Shown: positions 1 to 49,244, counted from the first letter of the stretch. The stretch is 49,244 nt of DNA from a virus (IMGVR_UViG_3300049929_000018:1-49244); one strand, 5' to 3'. Made by a program: numbers and translations. Notes: a model not told the origin generated them from the letters alone.

Positions 1-46
1 TACCAGCTACCACAAAGCCGAGGCAGTTTCGAGGGGTCTTTACTGC

Positions 47-72
47 CTTGGGACTTCACCCAAGTATTTTTT
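47..72 (+). terminator. Rho-independent terminator, left copy
   Basis: A 6-bp perfect stem (CTTGGG/CCCAAG, 47-52 and 59-64) with a 6-base loop is followed by a T-rich tract (65-72). Just upstream, AGGCAGT (21-27) can pair with ACTGCCT (42-48), overlapping the terminator stem by two bases. It would stop rightward transcription entering the RHH/iteron region. The same structure recurs at 48340-48365. Confidence 0.7.
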
Positions 73-113
73 CACCAGGGATTGACACCTCTATCCGCTT
101 TTCCGATGGGTTA

Positions 114-143
114 TGCCGTCATGTGCCGTCACTTGCCTTCACT
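114..143 (+). repeat. Three tandem 10-bp repeats (TGCCKTCAYK), distal operator-like array
   Basis: Units at 114-123, 124-133 and 134-143 read TGCCGTCATG, TGCCGTCACT and TGCCTTCACT. They lie ~25 bases after a TTGACA hexamer (82-87). The same unit type recurs as a second triple array at 407-436 in this copy. Tandem 10-bp units fit one RHH dimer per helical turn, and the RHH protein encoded at 479 is the obvious candidate ligand. That assignment is inference. Confidence 0.6.
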
Positions 144-159
144 CTCCAAGCACCTCACC

Positions 160-235
160 TAATATAAACGCGCGTGCATATCACGCACATCAACACAAAT
201 TTTAATATATATATAAGTAAGTTTATGTTTAGTAA
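160..235. other. AT-rich stretch, candidate DNA unwinding element
   Basis: An A/T-dominated run including a TATATATATA core lies between the 10-bp repeats and the 11-bp iterons, preceded by GCGTG-catat-CACGC. This order (repeats, AT-rich segment, iterons, small DNA-binding protein gene) is typical of a plasmid origin or centromere. No DnaA box was recognised with confidence. Confidence 0.4.
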
Positions 236-255
236 GGGAAAAGAGGCAAAAACGG

Positions 256-310
256 TATGATCATCTTATGAGCATCTTATGATCATCTAGTGATCACCTT
301 ATGATCATCT
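256..310 (+). repeat. Five tandem 11-bp iterons (TATGATCAYCT), left copy
   Basis: Five head-to-tail 11-bp units run without gaps from 256 to 310; three are TATGATCATCT and two are variants (TATGAGCATCT, AGTGATCACCT). Further ATGATCA half-units occur at 361-376. The right copy has only four units (48549-48592). Eleven-base spacing puts every unit on the same DNA face, as for iterons or a centromere bound by a small DNA-binding protein. Confidence 0.8.
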
Positions 311-406
311 TCCCAAGAGCCGCATGGATAGGGACTATACAGGCTGTAGAACAGGGGAACATGATCAAGATGATCATAGGTATGGCGTCAAGAGGACTTG
401 AAATAG

Positions 407-436
407 TGCCTTCGATTGCCTTCGATTGCCTTCACT
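407..436 (+). repeat. Three 10-bp repeats (TGCCTTCGAT), proximal array, allele A
   Basis: Units at 407-416, 417-426 and 427-436 read TGCCTTCGAT twice and TGCCTTCACT once. They lie ~45 bases before the RHH start codon and match the distal array at 114-143 in type. In the right copy this exact place holds a different triple repeat (CGCTTGGAGT type, 48690-48719), so this is the allele-specific operator. Confidence 0.7.
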
Positions 437-478
437 TCTTGATACACTGGATGATTACCTTCCACACCCAAGGACATC

Positions 479-727
479 ATGAAGACGACTATTAACCTAT
501 CCGACGAATTACGCGGCAGACTGGACGCCCACCTTATCCGCGCAGGATCATCACTCAATAAAATAATTTCCCTGGCTCTGGATCATTACCTTTACACCCT
601 GGAGCGTGAAGCCGCCCTAAACCGGATGGCATCGCAGCCGCTACCCGGCGACCCGGTAAAAGCAGCCGCGCTACAAGTGGTCAAAGAGTTGAACAGCGAC
701 GCGCTACCAGGTGACGACCGGATTTGA
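479..727 (+). CDS. Ribbon-helix-helix DNA-binding protein, allele A
   Basis: 82 residues. The N-terminal ~50 residues look like an RHH fold: strand TTINLSD, then two helices ending near ALDHYLYTLE. The C-terminal ~30 residues (from PLPGDP) are unlike known RHH tails. The start has a Shine-Dalgarno AAGGA seven bases upstream. The stop overlaps the next start (TGATG), so the two genes are probably co-translated. The array of 10-bp repeats in front of the gene suggests autoregulation. Role inferred as partition, copy-control or incompatibility protein; an antitoxin is less likely because the partner does not resemble a known toxin. The right-hand allele (48773) differs mainly in the RHH half. 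Confidence 0.75.
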   Translation: MKTTINLSDELRGRLDAHLIRAGSSLNKIISLALDHYLYTLEREAALNRMASQPLPGDPVKAAALQVVKELNSDALPGDDRI

Positions 728-981
728 TGGACACCGAAGCCACCAGGCTCAAAAAAATTATTGCGCTCCTGGACGAGTCCGCACCGAGCCGACTGGCCAT
801 CATCACAGACACCGCAGCCGAACCCGGCAAAGTTATCTTGACTATTGCCATTCGCCACCTTGCAGCCTTCGAGATGACTGCACCCGCCGAGAAATATGAC
901 GGCTTGCGCCTGCTTGAAATTCTCGAAGAAGGTCAGAACGGCGACGATTTATATATTTTGTCGAATAATCTTACATCATAA
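727..981 (+). CDS. Hypothetical partner of the RHH protein
   Basis: 84 residues, acidic C-terminus, no membrane segment. The ATG at 727 sits on the last base of the previous stop (TGATG), implying translational coupling. No family recognised. It could be a second component of the partition or copy-control locus, or an unrecognised toxin-like partner. A closely related copy starts at 49027 with only a few changes, in contrast to the diverged RHH N-terminus next to it. Confidence 0.7.
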   Translation: MDTEATRLKKIIALLDESAPSRLAIITDTAAEPGKVILTIAIRHLAAFEMTAPAEKYDGLRLLEILEEGQNGDDLYILSNNLTS

Positions 982-1073
982 ATCCCCACTATCCATGCTC
1001 CTCTTCAGCCATATATAGCAATCTATGCTGTAATGGCGTAGATAGAACGCAGTAAAATAACTTGCAATAAAAT

Positions 1074-1122
1074 CAAAGGTATGTAATCCTGTTTGTCGAA
1101 GGGTTTTACACCTTTGTTTTTT
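1074..1122 (+). terminator. Rho-independent terminator after the RHH operon
   Basis: CAAAGG (1074-1079) and TGTAA (1082-1086) pair with TTACA (1106-1110) and CCTTTG (1111-1116), giving an 11-bp stem with a 2-base bulge, followed directly by TTTTTT (1117-1122). It isolates the RHH gene pair from the accessory genes starting at 1243. Confidence 0.7.
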
Positions 1123-1134
1123 GGGCCAAAAATT

Positions 1135-1168
1135 CAAGGGGTATTGCGTTACAAATCAAGGGGTATTG
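1135..1168 (+). promoter_or_regulatory. Two CAAGGGGTATTG direct repeats, 22 bp apart
   Basis: The exact 12-mer occurs at 1135-1146 and 1157-1168, i.e. two helical turns apart on one DNA face. The same 12-mer is dispersed elsewhere (21268, 47986, and reversed at 46277), with shorter matches at 4724 and 2506. Likely operator sites for a regulator of this promoter region; the binding protein is unknown. Confidence 0.6.
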
Positions 1169-1173
1169 AATGC

Positions 1174-1190
1174 TGGCACGGTAACTGCTT
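1174..1190 (+). promoter_or_regulatory. Possible sigma-54-type promoter
   Basis: TGGCACG followed after four bases by CTGCTT puts GG (1175-1176) and GC (1187-1188) exactly 12 bp apart, matching the -24/-12 pattern TGGCACG-N4-TTGCW. It lies 55-70 bases before the start at 1243 and right after the two 12-mer repeats. A chance match is possible. Confidence 0.3.
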
Positions 1191-1206
1191 ATGTAATAAA
1201 TACTGA

Positions 1207-1225
1207 CCCGGCAGAACCGGGACAC
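1207..1225 (+). promoter_or_regulatory. 5'-UTR hairpin-ACAC element 1
   Basis: CCCGG (1207-1211), loop CAGAA, CCGGG (1217-1221), then ACAC (1222-1225), eighteen bases before the start codon at 1243. It is one of four copies with the same 5-bp stem, 5-base loop and ACAC trailer but different stem sequences, so base pairing is conserved by compensatory change. Confidence 0.65.
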
Positions 1226-1242
1226 TAAACGGAGAAATTGAA

Positions 1243-1524
1243 ATGGAAATGCGAGATATCAGGCATCACATGAAAGTAACCCTTGAAGGCGATAGAACCA
1301 CATACACAGTGCAGGCAACACACACCGAACGCCACGAGGTTTTTATTACCGCCCGTTTCGGAAATGACACCGTTGGACGCTGGTACGCCGTCCACCTGCT
1401 AACCGAAAAAACAAACATGACGAAAGCCTTGGCAGAGGCGCAAGCAATCGCACGCAAGGCAGCCAATGCGGAGATTAAGAAAGCAATAGCAGAGGACAGA
1501 GCCGCAGGAAGTGAAGATTATTAG
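1243..1524 (+). CDS. Hypothetical accessory protein, 93 aa
   Basis: The start is supported by GGAG at 1231-1234. The first half reads as alternating beta strands (VTLEG, TYTVQAT, HEVFITARF, VGRWYAVHLL); the second half is a long alanine- and charge-rich helix. No known family recognised. It is the first gene of the rightward plasmid-type block and carries hairpin-ACAC element 1 in its leader. Confidence 0.75.
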   Translation: MEMRDIRHHMKVTLEGDRTTYTVQATHTERHEVFITARFGNDTVGRWYAVHLLTEKTNMTKALAEAQAIARKAANAEIKKAIAEDRAAGSEDY

Positions 1525-1534
1525 TCCCTCAAGC

Positions 1535-1557
1535 AATGCGCCTATACCTGGCGCATT
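1535..1557 (+). promoter_or_regulatory. Intergenic hairpin ahead of ardC
   Basis: AATGCGCC (1535-1542) and GGCGCATT (1550-1557) form a perfect 8-bp stem with a 7-base loop just after the stop at 1524. No T-tract follows, so it is not a classical terminator. Comparable hairpins lie at the same relative place at 2495-2515 and 3357-3380, each preceding a hairpin-ACAC element. Confidence 0.55.
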
Positions 1558-1581
1558 ACTGGACGGATTACCGCACACCTA

Positions 1582-1600
1582 CCAAGAGGCACTTGGACAC
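1582..1600 (+). promoter_or_regulatory. 5'-UTR hairpin-ACAC element 2
   Basis: CCAAG (1582-1586), loop AGGCA, CTTGG (1592-1596), ACAC (1597-1600), fourteen bases before the ArdC start at 1614. Compared with element 1 the stem is changed on both strands while pairing is kept. Confidence 0.65.
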
Positions 1601-1613
1601 CGAAGGAAAAATC

Positions 1614-2483
1614 ATGACACAAGATATTTATCAAATCGTTACAGACAAAATCATTGCACAGCTTGAAGGCGGTTTAATCCCGTGGGTTAAGCCTTGGACG
1701 AATAGCGGACACGGCGGACTTCCTTTTAATGCAGCCACAGGCAAGGCGTACCGTGGAATAAATACCATGATTCTCTTTGCACCCGGCGCTGGCGAAGGTT
1801 GGATGACCTACATTCAGGCGAAGGAAGCAGGCGGACAGGTAAGGAAAGGCGAAAAAGGATCGATGGTAGTTTTTTTCAAGCCGTGGAAAATCGAAGACAA
1901 AAACGCGCCGGCAGGAAGTGAAGTTACGACCAAGACCATACCCATCTTAAAAAGCTACACAGTTTTTCATACATCGCAGATCGATAACCTGGCTGAAAAA
2001 TATCTACCGAAGGAAGCCGCGCCAGTCCCTGAAAAAATCCGCATCGAAGCCGCTGAAGCGTACATGGCACAGGCGACGATAAACCACGGCGGCGACCGTG
2101 CCTACTACCGCCTAGCAACTGACGCCATTCAACTCCCGATTCAATCGCAATTCAAATCGATAGATGACTACTACGCAACCGCATTGCATGAGCTCACCCA
2201 CTGGACTGGCCACGCTGACAGATGCGCGCGTGAATATGGGAAACGTTTTGGCGATCAAGCGTATGCGCGAGAAGAACTGGTGGCAGAAATGGGAGCCGCG
2301 TTTTTATGCGGTAAGACTGGTATCGCCGGACAGCTTCAACATGCTAGCTATCTGGCGTCATGGCTCAAGGTACTCAAGGCCGATAAGAGAGCGATTGTCG
2401 TGGCAGCAGGCGCAGCACAGAAGGCCGCCGACTTCATAACCGGGTGGAAATCTGAAGAGAAGGCGGAAGAAATAGCAGCCTGA
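1614..2483 (+). CDS. ardC: ArdC-type antirestriction protein
   Basis: 289 residues. The N-terminal domain (~1-125) has the ArdC-N ssDNA-binding pattern with IPWVKPW near residue 23 and the GKAYRGIN segment near 43. The C-terminal metallopeptidase-like domain has a zinc motif HELTH (192-196) and the glutamates of EELVAEMGAAF (220-230). ArdC proteins protect incoming plasmid DNA from host restriction. The ATG at 1614 is chosen over an upstream in-frame ATG because of GAAGGA at 1602-1607 and the leader hairpin. On a phage-plasmid it would help establishment after injection or conjugation. Family assignment is confident; activity is inferred. Confidence 0.9.
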   Translation: MTQDIYQIVTDKIIAQLEGGLIPWVKPWTNSGHGGLPFNAATGKAYRGINTMILFAPGAGEGWMTYIQAKEAGGQVRKGEKGSMVVFFKPWKIEDKNAPAGSEVTTKTIPILKSYTVFHTSQIDNLAEKYLPKEAAPVPEKIRIEAAEAYMAQATINHGGDRAYYRLATDAIQLPIQSQFKSIDDYYATALHELTHWTGHADRCAREYGKRFGDQAYAREELVAEMGAAFLCGKTGIAGQLQHASYLASWLKVLKADKRAIVVAAGAAQKAADFITGWKSEEKAEEIAA

Positions 2484-2494
2484 GTTTTTCAGGT

Positions 2495-2515
2495 AATACC
2501 CCTAGCAAGGGTATT
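2495..2515 (+). promoter_or_regulatory. Intergenic hairpin after ardC
   Basis: AATACCC (2495-2501) and GGGTATT (2509-2515) form a 7-bp stem with a 7-base loop. Its right arm overlaps a shortened copy of the dispersed motif (CAAGGGTATTG, 2506-2516). It could be an RNA hairpin, an operator, or both. Confidence 0.5.
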
Positions 2516-2535
2516 GCCGGAAGAATTTAAATCGA

Positions 2536-2554
2536 CCAGGCGACACCTGGACAC
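2536..2554 (+). promoter_or_regulatory. 5'-UTR hairpin-ACAC element 3
   Basis: CCAGG (2536-2540), loop CGACA, CCTGG (2546-2550), ACAC (2551-2554), 22 bases before the ATG at 2576 with AAGGAG in between (2562-2567). Third member of the covarying set. Confidence 0.65.
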
Positions 2555-2575
2555 CGCAACAAAGGAGAAAACAGC

Positions 2576-2905
2576 ATGGAAACCAAGGAAGCAATAGCCG
2601 CAATTAACGAAATCTCACTAAACCGCCTGCAAGCGGAGGTTTTCCCTGGTAGCACTATTTATTCAATATGCCGCCATGTATCCGCATCGAAGATCACCCG
2701 CAGTTATGCCTTCCTCATTATCAAGGACGGCGAATTATGGGAGATAACCTACATGATAGCCCGTGCCATTGGATACCACGTAAACGACGCACACGGCGGA
2801 ATTGAGACAAGAGGATACGGGAAGGAAGGCGCGCACCATCTTGTTATGGACGTAGCGCGAAAACTTTTTAATGACGCGTGCGCCTTGCACCATCGGGACA
2901 TTTAA
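2576..2905 (+). CDS. Hypothetical accessory protein, 109 aa
   Basis: A strong Shine-Dalgarno site (AAGGAG) precedes the ATG. The sequence shows a helical N-terminus, a central mixed alpha/beta part (YAFLIIKDGELWEITYMIARAI) and a histidine-rich C-terminus (AHHLVMDVARKL, LHHRDI). No family recognised. Neighbours and the leader hairpin place it with ArdC in the plasmid establishment block. Confidence 0.75.
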   Translation: METKEAIAAINEISLNRLQAEVFPGSTIYSICRHVSASKITRSYAFLIIKDGELWEITYMIARAIGYHVNDAHGGIETRGYGKEGAHHLVMDVARKLFNDACALHHRDI

Positions 2906-2907
2906 TC

Positions 2908-3096
2908 ATGAATCCATTTGCAGATATGTCCATCATGAAAACACTAAAACTACTAGAGGCACTAAGGGACATTAGGGAGGCGCTATACAACGTCCCGGAA
3001 GTTGGGGAAGTGTATGACCAGCAGCACAGCGACACTCACATGAGAGCCGCATTGCTAATTACTGATCTGATAAGACAAGCAGAAGATTTACTTTAA
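2908..3096 (+). CDS. Hypothetical small protein, 62 aa
   Basis: Mostly helical, begins two bases after the preceding stop. The Shine-Dalgarno site is weak; internal ATGs at 2926 or 2935 are alternatives. No family recognised. Position between two supported genes suggests it is translated in the same operon. Confidence 0.5.
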   Translation: MNPFADMSIMKTLKLLEALRDIREALYNVPEVGEVYDQQHSDTHMRAALLITDLIRQAEDLL

Positions 3097-3130
3097 CCCA
3101 TCCGACTAAAAAAATAACCGAGAAAACATC

Positions 3131-3346
3131 ATGAAAATGAACGCAGCAGCACGCAAAAAGATACTTGATAACCTGGTAATAGTCGCCGCCAAGTATCGGC
3201 AAATGTCCATAGAACTGAGAGGCGCAACAAATCCGCAAGTGATAGCCGCGCATCACCGCAGCGACGGACTGGCGGACGCATTCGACGCCGTACTAGACGC
3301 CATGAAAGGCGACCCGGTACTTCTCAACCTTTACGCGGAGAAATAG
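3131..3346 (+). CDS. Hypothetical small protein, 71 aa
   Basis: Helical throughout, with N-terminal MKMNAAARKKILDNL and an LADAFDAVLDAMK helix. The start is preceded by GAGAAAAC. No family recognised. It sits in the accessory block between ArdC and the DUF2958-like gene. Confidence 0.6.
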   Translation: MKMNAAARKKILDNLVIVAAKYRQMSIELRGATNPQVIAAHHRSDGLADAFDAVLDAMKGDPVLLNLYAEK

Positions 3347-3356
3347 CTTATCAAGT

Positions 3357-3380
3357 TATAGCCCCGGCACCGGGACTATA
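3357..3380 (+). promoter_or_regulatory. Intergenic inverted repeat before the DUF2958-like gene
   Basis: TATAG (3357-3361) pairs with CTATA (3376-3380), and inside it CCCGG (3363-3367) with CCGGG (3370-3374), with one C-A mismatch. The apex is only two bases, so the inner pairs would open in RNA; as DNA it is a near-palindrome. It occupies the same place as the hairpins at 1535 and 2495. Confidence 0.5.
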
Positions 3381-3397
3381 GCTGGACGAGTTACCGA

Positions 3398-3416
3398 CCA
3401 GGCGGAACCTGGACAC
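3398..3416 (+). promoter_or_regulatory. 5'-UTR hairpin-ACAC element 4
   Basis: CCAGG (3398-3402), loop CGGAA, CCTGG (3408-3412), ACAC (3413-3416), sixteen bases before the ATG at 3432. The segment upstream (CTGGACGAGTTACCG) also resembles that upstream of element 2 (CTGGACGGATTACCG). Confidence 0.65.
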
Positions 3417-3431
3417 ACTGGAGAAATGAAA

Positions 3432-3851
3432 ATGTATACCGAAACCGCAGCAATGGCAGCACTGGCACAATTATCGAGAGCGGGGTTTATTGGCGCAGCC
3501 CAACGTTCAGCAATCAAAACCGGATTCGCCAGCGAAGAGAAACAATTCTTTTTTGACAAAATTGGCGACCTTTCCGACGCGATCCAGTCTATGCCAAAAA
3601 CATATGACCAAGACGGACTTGGACAACAAGCCGTAGCGCACTTGCATTACTTTGTCGGAGGTTGTGACTGGTACATCACTGAAAAAGACATGCTGGCAGA
3701 ACAGCGTCAGGCCTTCGGACTGGCCGACCTTGGATATGGCGGCGAACTTGGCTATATCTGGCTAGGAGAAATCACGGCAGCAGGCGCAGAAATAGACCTG
3801 TACTGGACACCTACAACCCTTTCGACAATAGGAAAAACAACAGGAGCGTGA
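3432..3851 (+). CDS. DUF2958-like plasmid protein
   Basis: 139 residues. The C-terminal two thirds fit the DUF2958 pattern common on conjugative plasmids: a WYITE segment, then FGLADLGYGGELGYIWLGEI, then IDLYWTPTTLS. The N-terminal ~45 residues are less typical. ATG 3432 is preferred to ATG 3426 because TGGAG lies at 3419-3423. DUF2958 proteins often neighbour ArdC on plasmids; function unknown. Confidence 0.65.
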   Translation: MYTETAAMAALAQLSRAGFIGAAQRSAIKTGFASEEKQFFFDKIGDLSDAIQSMPKTYDQDGLGQQAVAHLHYFVGGCDWYITEKDMLAEQRQAFGLADLGYGGELGYIWLGEITAAGAEIDLYWTPTTLSTIGKTTGA

Positions 3852-3855
3852 CATC

Positions 3856-4119
3856 ATGAGATTCAATCAAATTGACGCTAAAATTGTAGCGTCCCCAAAC
3901 ATAGGAGCGATTATGGCCACATCAGAATTAGACCGACTGAAGGCAATCAATAAAACCTTACTGGAAGCGTTAAAGCTGGCGGAAGTTGAATGCCGCATAG
4001 CAGCGGAGGAATGCCAGGATAATAATGAAGTTCATGAAGGTTTTGAAAGAGCCAGCGAAATTGCACAGGCCGCAATCTTTGAGGCAGGCGGCGAACCCGT
4101 TGACTTCGGGATACAGTAA
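3856..4119 (+). CDS. Hypothetical coiled-coil protein, 87 aa
   Basis: Alanine- and glutamate-rich helix (about residues 24-70) typical of small phage or plasmid coiled-coil proteins. Two starts are credible: ATG 3856 (GGAG nine bases upstream) or ATG 3913, which has an equally good AGGAG five bases upstream and would give a 68-residue product beginning MATSELDRLKAIN. No family recognised. Confidence 0.65.
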   Translation: MRFNQIDAKIVASPNIGAIMATSELDRLKAINKTLLEALKLAEVECRIAAEECQDNNEVHEGFERASEIAQAAIFEAGGEPVDFGIQ

Positions 4120-4131
4120 TACCGCTTTCCC

Positions 4132-4175
4132 ATCACATTCATATCAAAGACACATTATAATGATATGAATGTGAT
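4132..4175 (+). promoter_or_regulatory. Perfect 15-bp inverted repeat upstream of 4215
   Basis: ATCACATTCATATCA (4132-4146) and its exact complement (4161-4175) flank a 14-base AT-rich spacer. A smaller TGATA/TATCA pair follows at 4172-4187. It lies 40 bases before the ATG at 4215. Palindromic dyad in DNA fits an operator for a dimeric repressor; as RNA it could also terminate or fold, but no T-tract follows. Confidence 0.7.
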
Positions 4176-4214
4176 AAATTAATATCACTTTACTATGAAT
4201 TAGATTAGGATAAT

Positions 4215-4682
4215 ATGTTCAACCAGCGATCTAAGAAACCGCTAGTCATGACGCACTTTCATAAAGACACAAGCCCGGAAGTGCGAAGAGTTTTGACGGA
4301 TTTACATAGAAGCGGGGAAAGAGTCCGCTTGTTTTATGGCGATCCCAAGAGCGGAAAAGCCTGGCCTGAAGTGATAGATGTTTTTGGGCGAATTGGCGTA
4401 GACCCTGGCGAGATTCAAGTACCGATTTTGAGAACTGTAGATGGTAGCGAAAAGGGCGGGAAAATCCGTGACTCGTCTATCGTTGCGATACTTGGAAAGG
4501 GCGGGCAATGGCATTACAGACACCCCTCTTTTTCCGTTGGCGAGTGGGCAGTTATACCGGCTCCCAATGAGGATTATTTAGACGCTGTTACGTTTGACGG
4601 CGGAATTATCGAACTATTCAAGAAGGTCGGGCAGGCACGGCGCTTCAAGGATTTTATGAGCGGCAGGCGGGCAAACAGGTAG
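4215..4682 (+). CDS. Conserved plasmid-type hypothetical protein, 155 aa
   Basis: The start has AGGA five bases upstream. Central region RVRLFYGDPKSGKAWPEVIDVFGRIG followed by IQVPILRT and a DSSIVAIL segment resembles a plasmid-borne protein type I have seen near replication or transfer genes, but I cannot name a family with certainty. No membrane segment. The long inverted repeat at 4132-4175 probably regulates it. Confidence 0.7.
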   Translation: MFNQRSKKPLVMTHFHKDTSPEVRRVLTDLHRSGERVRLFYGDPKSGKAWPEVIDVFGRIGVDPGEIQVPILRTVDGSEKGGKIRDSSIVAILGKGGQWHYRHPSFSVGEWAVIPAPNEDYLDAVTFDGGIIELFKKVGQARRFKDFMSGRRANR

Positions 4683-4710
4683 CAAATTATCCTGTAAGTC
4701 TGCCTTTTTA

Positions 4711-4750
4711 ATAGCCAACAATTCAATACCCCTTTTTATTGGGTGGCTAT
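4711..4750 (+). promoter_or_regulatory. Inverted repeat enclosing a dispersed-motif copy
   Basis: ATAGCCA (4711-4717) and TGGCTAT (4744-4750) flank a reverse-strand AAAGGGGTATTG (4724-4735). The structure lies 20-60 bases before the ATG at 4771, where an operator is expected. Confidence 0.5.
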
Positions 4751-4770
4751 CTATTTTAAAAGGAGGACGA

Positions 4771-5097
4771 ATGGCCGCGCGACGATTATTTACACCGGAA
4801 TTCAGGAATGAAGCTATTGCCGCATCTCTGGCAGCAGAAGAAAGCAGAGAAGAGACACAAAAACAACTTGCTGCACGGCTTGATATACACCCAAGCGTTT
4901 TGCAGAGATGGGTGAGGGATTATAGAAAAAACCCGAAAAGAGCTTATACCAAAAAAGCTATAGCCACACAAAACGCCTACCTTCCATCGCCCCCCGATAC
5001 CACCCCAACAAACGAAAGCAAAGAGCTTAAAAACCTACGCATCGAGCGCGATCTTTTAAAAGGTCTACTCGCTCATTACATGGGAGGCAAACCATGA
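4771..5097 (+). CDS. Stand-alone transposase OrfA-like HTH protein
   Basis: 108 residues. The N-terminus matches the IS3-type OrfA/HTH pattern: RLFTPEFRNEAI, then a helix-turn-helix ending LDIHPSVLQRWVRDY. The C-terminus has a leucine-rich helix (LKNLRIERDLLKGLLAHYM) as in OrfA multimerisation. No OrfB, terminal repeats or target duplication were seen nearby, and the stop overlaps the next start by 4 bases (ATGA). A very strong AAAGGAGGACG site precedes it. It therefore looks like a domesticated DNA-binding protein rather than an active insertion sequence. Confidence 0.75.
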   Translation: MAARRLFTPEFRNEAIAASLAAEESREETQKQLAARLDIHPSVLQRWVRDYRKNPKRAYTKKAIATQNAYLPSPPDTTPTNESKELKNLRIERDLLKGLLAHYMGGKP

Positions 5098-5681
5098 GCA
5101 TTACCGCTTATCCCCTGGCCTGGCCGCCTAGCATTCAACGATCCCCAAGGCGCGAACCGACACGGTTTCGCACTACGCTTACGAGCGCGCTTGGCAACGT
5201 ACAAACGAGCTTAATTCGCTTCGCAAAAGATTCGGAAATGGGACTTGAAGACCTGGTTATTTCCAGCAATGTAACGCTTGGAATGAATCACCCGCGAGAT
5301 CCTGGCGTAGCGATATGGTTCACTTGGGACTTGCACCAAGTTTGCATTCCAAACGACAAATATTCAACCGTCGAAGGCAATCTCCAAGGCATTCACCACA
5401 TCATTGAAGCGCGGCGAGTTGAGCTGAGGCATGGTTCGCTTGAGTTGGTGCGCGCGACCTTCAAAGGTTTCATGTTGGCAGCGCCGACGACTCTGCCCTG
5501 GTGGAAGGTTTTGGGAGTCAGGGAAGACGCGCCCCCGGCTGCGATAAAAGCAGCATACCGGAAACTATCATCAGCACATCATCCGGATAAGGGCGGCGAT
5601 AACTTGACCATGACGGATATAAACGCAGCATGGGAACAGGCGCAATGGATTATGGACCCGGAAACAGAGGGGCAACAATAG
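5094..5681 (+). CDS. J-domain (DnaJ-like) protein
   Basis: 195 residues. The last ~60 residues form a J domain: PWWKVLGVREDAPPAAIKAAYRKL with the HPD motif at 163-165. The N-terminal ~130 residues are a plasmid/phage-type domain of unknown function; there is no G/F region, zinc finger or membrane segment. J proteins stimulate DnaK ATPase; plasmid and phage versions may remodel replication or partition complexes (inference). Starts inside the previous gene's stop (ATGA overlap), so co-translated with the OrfA-like protein. Confidence 0.85.
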   Translation: MSITAYPLAWPPSIQRSPRREPTRFRTTLTSALGNVQTSLIRFAKDSEMGLEDLVISSNVTLGMNHPRDPGVAIWFTWDLHQVCIPNDKYSTVEGNLQGIHHIIEARRVELRHGSLELVRATFKGFMLAAPTTLPWWKVLGVREDAPPAAIKAAYRKLSSAHHPDKGGDNLTMTDINAAWEQAQWIMDPETEGQQ

Positions 5682-5700
5682 TATGGCAAAGATTGCCATA
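5682..5700 (+). promoter_or_regulatory. Inverted repeat in front of parD
   Basis: TATGGCAA (5682-5689) and TTGCCATA (5693-5700) are a perfect 8-bp dyad with a 3-base centre, directly after the J-domain gene stop and 34 bases before parD. Typical place and size for the ParD autoregulatory operator. Confidence 0.55.
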
Positions 5701-5733
5701 ACCCTGTATTGTCCTGGCAGGAGGTAACACTTT

Positions 5734-6009
5734 ATGAAAACCATGAATATTTCATTACCCGATCAGATGAAGCAGTACGTAGACGAGCAAATTTCAAAAG
5801 GCCGCTTTAGTAGCGTCAGTGAATACGTGCGCGGCATGATCCGACTAGATCAAAGAGGGCAGGCAGAATTAGTGCTTGTGCAATATCTGGCGGAAGGCAT
5901 GGAAGGGCCAAGCACTCCTTTCACAGACGCAGATGTAGCGGATATTTGCGAAAGAGGCGTAGCCCGCTACAACGCTCTGCAAGTGGAGAAAAAGGTAGCC
6001 AGTGGCTAA
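5734..6009 (+). CDS. parD: ParD-family antitoxin
   Basis: 91 residues with the ParD pattern: N-terminal RHH MNISLPDQMKQYVDEQISKG, then FSSVSEYVRGMIR, and an acidic C-terminal tail that binds toxin. GGAGG lies eight bases upstream. It overlaps parE by 8 bases, the usual antitoxin-first order. Role: neutralise ParE and repress the operon, giving post-segregational stability to the episome. Confidence 0.9.
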   Translation: MKTMNISLPDQMKQYVDEQISKGRFSSVSEYVRGMIRLDQRGQAELVLVQYLAEGMEGPSTPFTDADVADICERGVARYNALQVEKKVASG

Positions 6010-6340
6010 TGTTGAAAAAACCAGGCAGGCAGTAATTGACCTGGACGAGTGTTTTGATTACCTGGCTAAAGAGGCTGGAATTAAGAAAGCAAAGGCATTT
6101 GTAAAGAGTGCCCATGAGAGCTTTCATTACCTGGCGAAATATCCAGAAGCAGGGGCGCCTTTGCACATATATCGCCCCCAATATATGTATGTACGAAAAT
6201 GGCCGGTAGAGGCGCATGAAAAATACCTTATTTTCTATCAGCCGTGGAGTTCTGGCTGGCGTAGAGGCGTGGAGATTATCCGCGTCATCCATTCTTCTAG
6301 GGACTGGTGGCGAAATTTTGAGATCACAATCACATCATGA
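6002..6340 (+). CDS. parE: ParE/RelE-family toxin
   Basis: 112 residues. GTG start at 6002 inside the end of parD, with GGAG upstream. Shows the ParE layout: two N-terminal helices (DLDECFDYLAKEAG, AKAFVKSAHESFHYLAKYPEAG), then strands YVRKWPV, KYLIFYQP and VEIIRVIHSSRDWW at the C-terminus. ParE toxins poison DNA gyrase (family knowledge). The stop overlaps the resolvase start by 4 bases. Confidence 0.88.
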   Translation: MANVEKTRQAVIDLDECFDYLAKEAGIKKAKAFVKSAHESFHYLAKYPEAGAPLHIYRPQYMYVRKWPVEAHEKYLIFYQPWSSGWRRGVEIIRVIHSSRDWWRNFEITITS

Positions 6341-7002
6341 AAAAAGCAATCGGGTATATCCGCGTCAGCACTGACAGGCAGGCCCAGGAAGGCGTCTCGC
6401 TGGACGCGCAGCGCGACAAGATCGAATCATGGTGCAAGGCTAACGACTACACGCTGGCAGGCGTATACATCGATGCAGGATTGAGCGGCAAGAGCATGGC
6501 CAAGCGGCCGGAATTGCTAAAAGCACTGGCGACGATCAAGCGCGGCATGGTGCTAGTTGTCTACAGTCTAAGCCGCCTGGCCCGGTCTACCAAGGACACA
6601 CTTACGATGTCAGAGCATCTTGCCAAGGTAGGCGCCGACCTGGTAAGCCTGACGGAAAAGCTGGACACCACAGGGGCAGCCGGGAAAATGATGTTTAGGA
6701 TGCTGGCAGTCCTGGCAGAGTTCGAGCGCGACGTCACCAGTGAACGCACCACCGGCGCATTAGCTTACAAGAAGGCGGTAGGCGAGAAGTACAGCACAAC
6801 CCCTTTTGGCTATTCCGAAAAAAGCGGGAAACTGACGGCAGACGAATCGGAATCGCTGGTAGTCGCTGAAATGGTTGCAAGGCGGGACGCTGGCACATCT
6901 TTTGCTGAGATAGCCACCTGGCTCAATAGCGCGGGAATCCGTGGCAAAAAGGGCGGGCAATGGCACGCCTCAACAGTGCGCTATTTAATCCAAAGGCAAT
7001 AA
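6337..7002 (+). CDS. Small serine recombinase (resolvase type)
   Basis: 221 residues. Catalytic domain opens with YIRVSTDRQ (Ser11), followed by arginines in YSLSRLARS and the helix GKMMFRMLAVLAEFERDVTSERT. The C-terminal part is short (GYSEKSGKLTAD onward, ending in a QWHASTVRYLIQ HTH-like segment), consistent with a resolvase/invertase or short recombinase-domain protein, not a large integrase. It shares the operon with parDE through an ATGA overlap. Likely role: multimer resolution of the episome. Inversion or integration cannot be excluded. Confidence 0.85.
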   Translation: MKKAIGYIRVSTDRQAQEGVSLDAQRDKIESWCKANDYTLAGVYIDAGLSGKSMAKRPELLKALATIKRGMVLVVYSLSRLARSTKDTLTMSEHLAKVGADLVSLTEKLDTTGAAGKMMFRMLAVLAEFERDVTSERTTGALAYKKAVGEKYSTTPFGYSEKSGKLTADESESLVVAEMVARRDAGTSFAEIATWLNSAGIRGKKGGQWHASTVRYLIQRQ

Positions 7003-7327: not shown

Positions 7328-7698
7328 TCGAGATGTATATCCTGGAGGGCAGGACTCCAGTGCGGTGCAATGACATGATGAAGTGGAGCCAATGGTACGG
7401 CACGGTGGACCGGCATGTAGCGGAAACACTCATAGACGATGTAAGAATTAGCACGGTATTCCTTGGGCTTGATTGCAACCCGTTCGGCGGTGCGCCGTTA
7501 CTTTTTGAGACAATGGTTTCGGCCAATGAAGAATGGGGACCGATTCAACTGCGTTGCAGCACCTACATGCAGGCAGAACAAATGCACCAGTCCGTTGTGG
7601 AAAGGGTGCAAGAATCCAAGGGCAATGCGGCGACGATAACGGACGAGACTTTCGCCAGGCTCAAAGCCATAGCGACATGGACACCAAGGCCGCTATGA
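7324..7698 (+). CDS. Conserved phage-type hypothetical protein, 124 aa
   Basis: The ATG at 7324 overlaps the previous stop. The middle resembles a protein type frequent in phages and plasmids, with ISTVFLGLDCNP, PLLFETMV and a following RCSTYMQAEQMHQ segment. Function unknown. Last gene of the rightward block; it converges on the leftward gene ending at 7729. Confidence 0.7.
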   Translation: MIEMYILEGRTPVRCNDMMKWSQWYGTVDRHVAETLIDDVRISTVFLGLDCNPFGGAPLLFETMVSANEEWGPIQLRCSTYMQAEQMHQSVVERVQESKGNAATITDETFARLKAIATWTPRPL

Positions 7699-7728: not shown

Positions 7729-8052
7729 TCACTGTTCTATATTTAGGCCGCGCTTACGCCTTTCCTCTAGTATTTCCGTGACCATTTCCCCGTTCGGAAT
7801 GCCAAGCATGGCTTCCATCGCCCTGGCATGGGCTAGACTATTAACGTCAGCAGTTATCTCCTGCAATATCTCAAGATTGCTTACCATTGCCCTGCCTTGT
7901 TTGGTTCTCAGCATTTCGATTACGCATATAGCTCCAGCATAAAATGAGTCCAAAACAAACTGCCTATCTTTCTCTGACAGATCCTTGAACCCACGCGGCC
8001 GGCCAGTTTCAAATAACTGCCAATACGCATCAATTGATTTAAGTTTTTTCAT
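7729..8052 (-). CDS. Hypothetical protein, paralogue of the product of 17077-17382
   Basis: 107 residues from ATG 8052 (AGGAG six bases upstream). The N-terminal half (YWQLFETG, then FVLDSFYAGAICVIEML) matches the layout of the protein at 17077 (HWELFHTA, TAMKMCYYAGVRAMMLV), suggesting two copies of one family. No known function. Last gene of the leftward replication operon; overlaps its upstream neighbour by 4 bases. Confidence 0.7.
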   Translation of the reverse strand: MKKLKSIDAYWQLFETGRPRGFKDLSEKDRQFVLDSFYAGAICVIEMLRTKQGRAMVSNLEILQEITADVNSLAHARAMEAMLGIPNGEMVTEILEERRKRGLNIEQ

Positions 8053-48293: not shown

Positions 48294-48339
48294 TACCAGC
48301 TACCACAAAGCCGAGGCAGTTTCGAGGGGTCTTTACTGC

Positions 48340-48365
48340 CTTGGGACTTCACCCAAGTATTTTTT
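48340..48365 (+). terminator. Rho-independent terminator, right copy
   Basis: Identical to the hairpin and T-tract at 47-72. Confidence 0.7.
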
Positions 48366-48548
48366 CACCAGGGATTGACACCTCTATCCGCTTTTCCGAT
48401 GGGTTATGCCGTCATGTGCCTTCACTTGCCTTCACTCTCCAAGCACCTCACCTAATATAAACGCGCGTGTGCATCATGCATATCAACACAAATTTTAATA
48501 TATATATAAGTAAGTTTATGTTTAGTAAGGGAAAAGAGGCAAAAACGG

Positions 48549-48592
48549 TATGATCATCTTATGATCACCTTATGATCACCTTATGATCATCT
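48549..48592 (+). repeat. Four tandem 11-bp iterons, right copy
   Basis: Units TATGATCATCT, TATGATCACCT twice, TATGATCATCT. One unit fewer than the left copy and without its two degenerate units. Confidence 0.8.
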
Positions 48593-48689
48593 TCCCAAGA
48601 GCCGCATGGATAGGGACTCTACAGGCTGTAGAACAGGGGAACATGATCAAGATGATCATAGATAGGGTATCAAGAGGACTTGAAATAGT

Positions 48690-48725
48690 CGCTTGGAGTC
48701 GCTTGGACTCGCTTGACTTCAAGCG
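48690..48725 (+). repeat. Three 10-bp repeats (CGCTTGGAGT), proximal array, allele B
   Basis: Units at 48690-48699, 48700-48709 and 48710-48719 (CGCTTGGAGT, CGCTTGGACT, CGCTTGACTT); the last forms a dyad with CAAGCG (48720-48725). It replaces the TGCCTTCGAT array of the left copy at the same relative place with the same 10-bp period. Confidence 0.7.
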
Positions 48726-48772
48726 GCTTTTTAGCCAGTATTTGATCATCTTCAACCTTGGAAATGACCATC

Positions 48773-49027
48773 ATGGCAGCAGTAACGACTATTACCCTAT
48801 CCGACGACTTGAGAGAAAGGCTAGAAGCCCATCGAATCAGGACTGGCGCATCGATCAATAAAACGGTATCCATTGCCCTGGATCAATACCTTTTCGGCCT
48901 AGAGCGTGACGCGGCATTATTGCGCCAAGCAATGCAACCGCTACCCGGCGACCCGGTAAAAGCTGCCGCGCTACAAGTGGTCAAGGAATTGAACAGCGAC
49001 ACGCTACCAGGTGACGACCGGATTTGA
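48773..49027 (+). CDS. Ribbon-helix-helix DNA-binding protein, allele B
   Basis: 84 residues from ATG 48773 (ATG 48764 and a TTG at 48758 are alternatives). The RHH half (VTTITLSDDLRERLEAHRIR) is clearly related to, but strongly diverged from, allele A. The last ~28 residues, from PLPGDP, differ by a single residue. The strand residue at the DNA face changes from Asn (TINL) to Thr (TITL), in step with a different operator array. Confidence 0.75.
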   Translation: MAAVTTITLSDDLRERLEAHRIRTGASINKTVSIALDQYLFGLERDAALLRQAMQPLPGDPVKAAALQVVKELNSDTLPGDDRI

Positions 49028-49244
49028 TGGACACCGAAGCCACCAGGCTCAAAAAAATTATTGCGCTCCTGGACGAGTCCGCACCGAGCCGCCTGGCTAT
49101 CATCACAGACACCGCAGCCGTACCCGGTCAAGTTGTCCTGACTATTGCCATTCGCCACCTTGCAGCCTTCGAGATGACTGCACCCGCCGAGAAATATGAC
49201 GGCTTGCGCCTGCTTGAAATTCTCGAAGAAGGTCAGAACGGCGA
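49027..49244 (+). CDS. Partner of RHH protein, right copy, cut by the window end
   Basis: Starts MDTEATRLKKIIALLDESAP like the gene at 727 and differs by only a few substitutions (for example TAAVPGQVVLT instead of TAAEPGKVILT). The last ~12 codons lie outside the window. Confidence 0.7.
   Translation, partial: MDTEATRLKKIIALLDESAPSRLAIITDTAAVPGQVVLTIAIRHLAAFEMTAPAEKYDGLRLLEILEEGQNG

Follow-up and report, generated by a model that had tools for sequence, protein, structure and literature searches.

Phage mRNAs very rarely contain regulatory pseudoknots, and one common to several different genes is rarer still. The pseudoknot operator of T4 gene 32 was described in 2010 as possibly the sole viral case of its kind (PMC3014915). 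In the gene 32 mRNAs of T4, T2 and RB69, a coaxial H-type pseudoknot lies in the phage leader and is followed by an unstructured stretch with the SD and the start codon (PMC535899, PMC3014915). It is present as one copy before one gene, ~67 nt upstream in T4. The SAS and ESAS elements of the Cluster K mycobacteriophages are repeated in one orientation directly before many non-structural gene starts, half with inverted repeats (PMC3203893). SAS is a near-fixed, GGGATAGGAGCCC-like 13-bp sequence that contains the SD and lies 3-7 bp from the start. In ESAS, imperfect 17-bp repeats are separated by variable spacers, and neither a pseudoknot nor compensating changes have been described. A common upstream sequence on anti-restriction or establishment genes is also known from EGeRS1 of pLS20 (PMC8708921), the CUP elements of IncN plasmids (PMC6289460) and Frpo (PMC9849209). 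EGeRS1 is structured and located upstream of ardC but is 400-600 bp long, the CUP elements bind the repressor ArdK as DNA, and Frpo are ssDNA promoters.

The leaders described here are found in a 49,244-nt complete virus record of IMG/VR, the whole of which is called the window. It comes from a phage or phage-plasmid: genes for a terminase, a major head protein and a primase-helicase lie on the minus strand, and the first 7 kb consist of accessory genes on the plus strand. An earlier note on this DNA had pointed out four hairpins with a 5-bp stem, a 5-nt loop and a following ACAC, placed before four different genes including ardC and a DUF2958-like gene. The hairpins are real, each with a perfect stem (1207-1221, 1582-1596, 2536-2550 and 3398-3412), and no others of this form occur on either strand of the window. 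Dinucleotide shuffles (300) gave 0.26 hairpins per window on average and 2 at most, versus the 4 observed. The four genes are likewise as stated, both named identities being confirmed by Pfam or profile scores (ArdcN 3e-34 and MPTase-PolyVal 1e-46 for ArdC; 22.4 bits versus a cut-off of 21 for the DUF2958-like gene). A search for relatives of the 93-aa protein encoded after the first leader found none.

The plain hairpin, on the other hand, does not stand; stem, loop and ACAC are as described, but the loop also pairs with the 5' flank, which makes the fold an H-type pseudoknot. In all four leaders, loop positions 1-3 can form perfect Watson-Crick pairs, across one A, with the trinucleotide one base 5' of the stem (CUG/CAG, CCU/AGG, UCG/CGA and CCG/CGG for W1 to W4). 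This second helix, S1, is an independent test, since the hairpins were picked without regard to it; S1-complementary hairpins numbered 0 in the 300 shuffles. The consensus is a 24-nt element, A-NNN-A-CCNNG-NNN-MA-CNNGG-ACAC, consisting of S1 (3 bp), L1 (one A), S2 (5 bp, CCNNG/CNNGG), L2 (0 nt) and L3 (MA), then ACAC and the SD. Because L2 is 0 nt, S1 and S2 are able to stack coaxially. The pseudoknot lies 1-4 kcal/mol below the hairpin alone by a crude nearest-neighbour estimate in which the pseudoknot penalty is assumed. A scan of the whole window with the leader criteria returned only W1-W4, all on the coding strand, with ACAC ending 17, 13, 21 and 15 nt before the start codon (W4 measured to ATG 3432). 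W1-W4 are almost certainly RNA elements, and the RNA very probably folds as a pseudoknot.

Table 1. Leaders, genes, H1 hairpins and promoter in the window, and leaders of IncL/M plasmids
Feature	Position	Strand	Details
Sigma-54-like promoter	1173..1190	+	CTGGCACGGTAACTGCTT; near-perfect match, upstream of W1
Pseudoknot leader W1	1202..1225	+	A-CUG-A-CCCGG-CAG-AA-CCGGG-ACAC, SD GGAG, ATG 1243
CDS, 93 aa, no assigned function	1243..1524	+	downstream of W1
H1 hairpin after stop of 1243-1524 gene	1525..1567	+	UCA-[10 pairs]-GGACGGA
Pseudoknot leader W2 (ardC)	1577..1600	+	A-CCU-A-CCAAG-AGG-CA-CUUGG-ACAC, SD AGGA, ATG 1614
CDS, ArdC anti-restriction protein (ArdcN + zincin)	1614..2483	+	downstream of W2
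H1 hairpin after ardC stop	2484..2525	+	UCA-[11 pairs]-GGAAGAA
Pseudoknot leader W3	2531..2554	+	A-UCG-A-CCAGG-CGA-CA-CCUGG-ACAC, SD AGGAG, ATG 2576
CDS, 109 aa, phrog_12365, no assigned function	2576..2905	+	downstream of W3
H1 hairpin after 3131-3346 gene	3347..3390	+	UCA-[12 pairs]-GGACGAG
Pseudoknot leader W4 (DUF2958-like gene)	3393..3416	+	A-CCG-A-CCAGG-CGG-AA-CCUGG-ACAC, SD GGAG, ATG 3432
CDS, DUF2958-like / phrog_5203	3432..3851	+	downstream of W4
IncL/M leaders	L123 2815-9861 (pCTX-M3); L124 7243-14289 (pOXA-48-like)		eight genes, SD-abutting

The search for covarying copies elsewhere, proposed in the earlier note, succeeded. The contig L006, found through its ArdC (92% identical to that of the window), has five further copies (R1-R5) in front of different genes; the one at 7669-7692 is without ACAC, and one copy has a 3-nt L3. 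L037 and L048 have one copy each, and nothing in common between the proteins of these two and those of the window phage was detected except a distant terminase. A scan of 2.9 million IMG/VR contigs, with the S1 pairs and the inner S2 pairs left free and CC..GG and ACAC fixed, gave 39 sites among the loci examined. Seven were fully paired; these came from the window, L006, L037 and L048, and each is an SD-ATG leader. Conservation of CC..GG and ACAC in L037 and L048 is by construction, since the patterns already fixed those letters. The other sites resemble background combinations, many of them coding-like. Hairpins in L038, L041-L043 and L108 were dismissed because S1 is unpaired, and L046 (no clear RBS) and L044 (2-nt L1) are uncertain as further copies.

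The alignment contains 11 elements (4 from the window, 5 from L006 and 1 each from L037 and L048), and all 8 pairs are formed in each of them (100% of cells). Two-sided changes are seen at 5 of the 8 pairs, including all 3 of S1. Pair types are CG/UA, CG/UA and GC/UA in S1, and AU/CG/UA and GC/AU/GU at the varying positions of S2; S2 is invariant at its outer pairs and at the closing G-C. On four of five measures none of 500 shuffles equalled the observed covariation; the fifth, further pair types, was reached by 111 of the 500. When the register was shifted, two-sided changes were absent at 5 of 6 positions and limited to one cell at the sixth. The compensating stem changes claimed earlier are thus real, and the two-sided compensation places the RNA fold under selection. 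A real cis-RNA pseudoknot is common to several genes of these phages.

The same data bear on two explanations at the level of DNA. An inverted repeat that lies at or close to promoters and binds a repressor dimer would fit the palindromic stem and the ribbon-helix-helix genes, one present at 479-727 and one at the end of the contig. Such an operator is hardly credible, because the loop pairs with the flank and covaries, both arms vary with compensation that DNA readers do not tolerate, the SD distance is fixed, most copies are without a promoter, and all copies lie on the coding strand. Boundary sequences might instead be conserved to permit gene shuffling by homologous recombination: the elements recur while the genes between them differ, and L006 is without the 2576-2905 gene, its pseudoknot there now preceding a 13-codon remnant. 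Compensated stem divergence, however, lowers homology, whereas a linker would need it to be preserved. Recombination may still apply as a side effect, but as the reason for the element it is very unlikely. A CRISPR-repeat mimic, tandem type III antitoxin repeats and boxB were set aside for wrong placement or the lack of a tandem array. With regard to a riboswitch, the marked genes are without a common metabolic theme, and 24 nt is very small.

Over the known copies, the element ends 13-23 nt upstream of the start codon with the SD outside it, unlike SAS. It shares with gene 32 an H-type pseudoknot 5' of the RBS, but it is smaller and precedes four or five genes, and no gp32 gene was identified. 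Whereas the gene 32 operator controls the gene of its own ssDNA-binding protein, the genes downstream of the phage leaders encode ArdC, a DUF2958-like protein and proteins without assigned function; by analogy, the two may at most work alike. In Frpo, the folded strand presents the -35 and -10 boxes; no promoter-like site was detected at the four window copies, and in L006 an ordinary promoter lies upstream of R1. Judged by defining features, the phage element belongs to none of these groups: the gene 32 operator, SAS/ESAS or establishment-gene leaders of the EGeRS1 type.

Rfam gave 0 matches in the window at the gathering threshold and nothing convincing at relaxed thresholds. The W3 region (2478-2578) has a weak full-length match to freshwater-2, another structured leader with SD-ATG; identity with that family was dismissed as probably chance (20.4 bits versus a gathering threshold of 49.9, mostly from the SD). 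In ~85,000 bacterial and archaeal species genomes, the pattern with S1 = YYG was found nowhere beyond background. Only one (L058) of its 24 matches pairs fully, with G-U and no SD after it, and was taken as chance. Among 399 genomes from the order that includes Duganella, with S1 free, there were 8 pattern matches, fewer than with the reversed-pattern control, and by eye the full fold was in none. A link to ardC as such fails as well: the element is not tied to this gene, since it is absent from the phages L007 and L008 with 59-62% identical ArdC. As far as could be searched in literature and databases, the element has not been described before and has no Rfam family.

Window positions 1-6400 showed no DNA similarity to phages and, against plasmids, a single weak 4% match in a metallopeptidase gene; among IMG/VR viral contigs, TerL relatives were found only on the L006 contig. 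Positions 1-944 and 48294-49244 form a 950-bp direct repeat of 87% identity, containing a ribbon-helix-helix gene and its neighbour, of which a single version lies in L006, flanked by the terminase side and ardC. Therefore, the genome is probably circular or permuted, and the gene pair tandem-duplicated and diverged. A pair resembling ParD/ParE (an RHH-like protein and a phrog_2455 protein) and a serine resolvase are located at 5734-7002; together, in a phage record, they make a phage-plasmid possible. The resolvase is nearest to those of Polaromonas plasmids (59%), a weak hint of a Burkholderiales host.

The pseudoknot occurs in two genomic contexts, after a promoter or, between cistrons, after another hairpin, H1. 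Six intergenic sites contain H1, UCA-[10-12 pairs]-GGA(C/A)GR; its paired bases differ from site to site, and it begins no more than a few bases away from the upstream stop codon. It precedes the pseudoknot in W2-W4 and in R2-R3 of L006, but the sixth H1, in L006, is without a pseudoknot downstream; H1 is thus part of the upstream gene's 3' end. It was dismissed as an intrinsic terminator because it has no U-tract and no terminator-like match was obtained on the + strand at the three window positions. In L006, the intergenic hairpins at 7632-7665 and 8003-8040, ahead of R5 and R4, represent another H1 subtype (CYUAGC...CAGUAGG). Transcription from the sigma-54-like promoter would start at about 1200, 2 nt before W1; a near-perfect promoter of this class upstream of the first pseudoknot gene is unusual for an early phage operon. 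A TTGACA-18-TAATAT promoter ends 12 nt upstream of R1 in L006, and the L037 and L048 copies lie, by eye, downstream of promoter-like sequences. The accessory region thus appears to read as units of pseudoknot-SD-gene(s)-H1.

One explanation of this arrangement is a 5'-end protector or processing unit: H1 would be cut or trimmed (by a T7-like RNase III or by RNase E), and the pseudoknot would cap the new end, giving stable monocistronic mRNAs. The placement of H1 at the stop codon with the pseudoknot immediately ahead of the next SD is consistent with it, as are the promoter-proximal copies near predicted 5' ends in L006 and (by eye) L037, and an H1 that is not a terminator. But unpaired A's and ACAC would not have to be kept for pure protection, the predicted start in L048 lies ~25 nt upstream of the pseudoknot, and cleavage remains putative. 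On balance, protection or processing as the sole role is rather unlikely.

We favor, as the fairly likely reading, a cis-acting pseudoknot leader at each translational unit of the early/accessory region. The RNA would fold during synthesis and, in cis at the 5' border of the 30S binding site, set the level of translation initiation and/or shield the mRNA 5' end unit by unit; its counterpart at the 3' end, or for processing, would be H1, each unit being carried whole. The fold (before ACAC) ends 17-27 nt upstream of the start codon, which coincides with the upstream edge of the 30S footprint. S1, with only 3 bp, counts against this reading, as do the L006 copy without ACAC and the failure to find a candidate binding protein common to the phages. 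A cis effect on translation or on the 5' end, taken by itself, is likely; that it is translational control rather than pure stability comes close to an even call, leaning slightly to no. No consistent SD-hiding alternative pairing was found by eye. An SD-sequestering switch via S1 is possible in some leaders and absent in W3, R4 and L037 (by eye), and was rejected as inconsistent; switch behaviour is therefore a candidate at most, next to a role as enhancer or stabiliser.

The leaders could also be translational operators in the manner of gp32, with a phage or host RNA-binding protein reading the pseudoknot and the invariant unpaired A's and ACAC and repressing or activating all of the marked genes. 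The layout is that of the gene 32 leader in T4/RB69, where the pseudoknot lies on the 5' side and an unstructured stretch with the SD comes next; A1, A5, mostly A15 and ACAC are kept in the 9 copies of two related phages; and one element stands before several different genes, as it would in a regulon. However, the window phage and L037/L048 have no protein in common, the distant terminase aside, and with so few carriers a widespread host regulator would be odd. An operator of this type is a tentative alternative, and a dedicated protein or sRNA partner is similarly somewhat doubtful. Thus, of the shared post-transcriptional switch with a binding partner that the earlier note envisaged, a selected RNA fold adjoining the RBS of several accessory genes, including anti-restriction, survives; the partner protein is not borne out, no candidate trans-acting protein being common to the carrier phages. 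As compensating mutations leave the fold intact and unrelated phages carry it too, it is probably an RNA element, as yet uncharacterised, that controls host-takeover and anti-defence genes. If it acts on translation, it would provide a testable RNA rule for fast expression of ArdC-like anti-restriction proteins upon entry of a mobile element, and at 24 nt it could serve as a very small RNA control part.

A parallel architecture was reached by chance in IncL/M plasmids, when BLAST of one phage leader against plasmids matched inside hha; the hha match itself is not the element. Run on these plasmid loci, the pseudoknot finder used for the phages detected the leader CGG-YA-GCGCC-CCG-(ACT/ACC/ATT/CAT)-GGCGC-AGGAG immediately ahead of 8 genes in the leading region of pCTX-M3 and of a pOXA-48-like plasmid. 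An antirestriction gene and a DUF1380 gene are among them, and the copies lie near promoters as well as between cistrons. A ninth, degenerate copy is located ahead of the gene annotated at L123:10727. By BLAST, the IncL/M leader matched 1,302 plasmid records, usually at 6-10 sites per record, and no published description of it was found in the literature searched. The IncL/M and phage elements are alike in topology next to the SD, but they have no sequence similarity, the IncL/M stems are invariant, and the IncL/M fold abuts the SD. Since only loop positions vary among intact copies, the predicted IncL/M fold rests on complementarity and not on covariation. Common descent is not claimed. Compact H-type pseudoknot leaders might be a recurrent, unnamed tag of mobile elements (phages and IncL/M-like conjugative plasmids) that puts early anti-defence and establishment genes under common post-transcriptional control or boosts them on entry, a speculative and on present evidence unlikely generalization. 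The question is a practical one because IncL/M leading regions include those of widespread carbapenemase plasmids.

The same scan found no repeated compact pseudoknot in R46, F or R64 (leaving out the ardA-ssb stretch of R64, L120). In R46 (L117), the CUP leaders of ccgAI, ardA, ccgC, ccgD and ardB have the form CGGG[AT]GGC-AATACC-GCC[AG]CCCG..ATTGCCGGTAT, with a loop AUACC that is complementary to a downstream GGUAU. A larger RNA pseudoknot may overlap these CUP elements, which are known as repressor sites at the DNA level.
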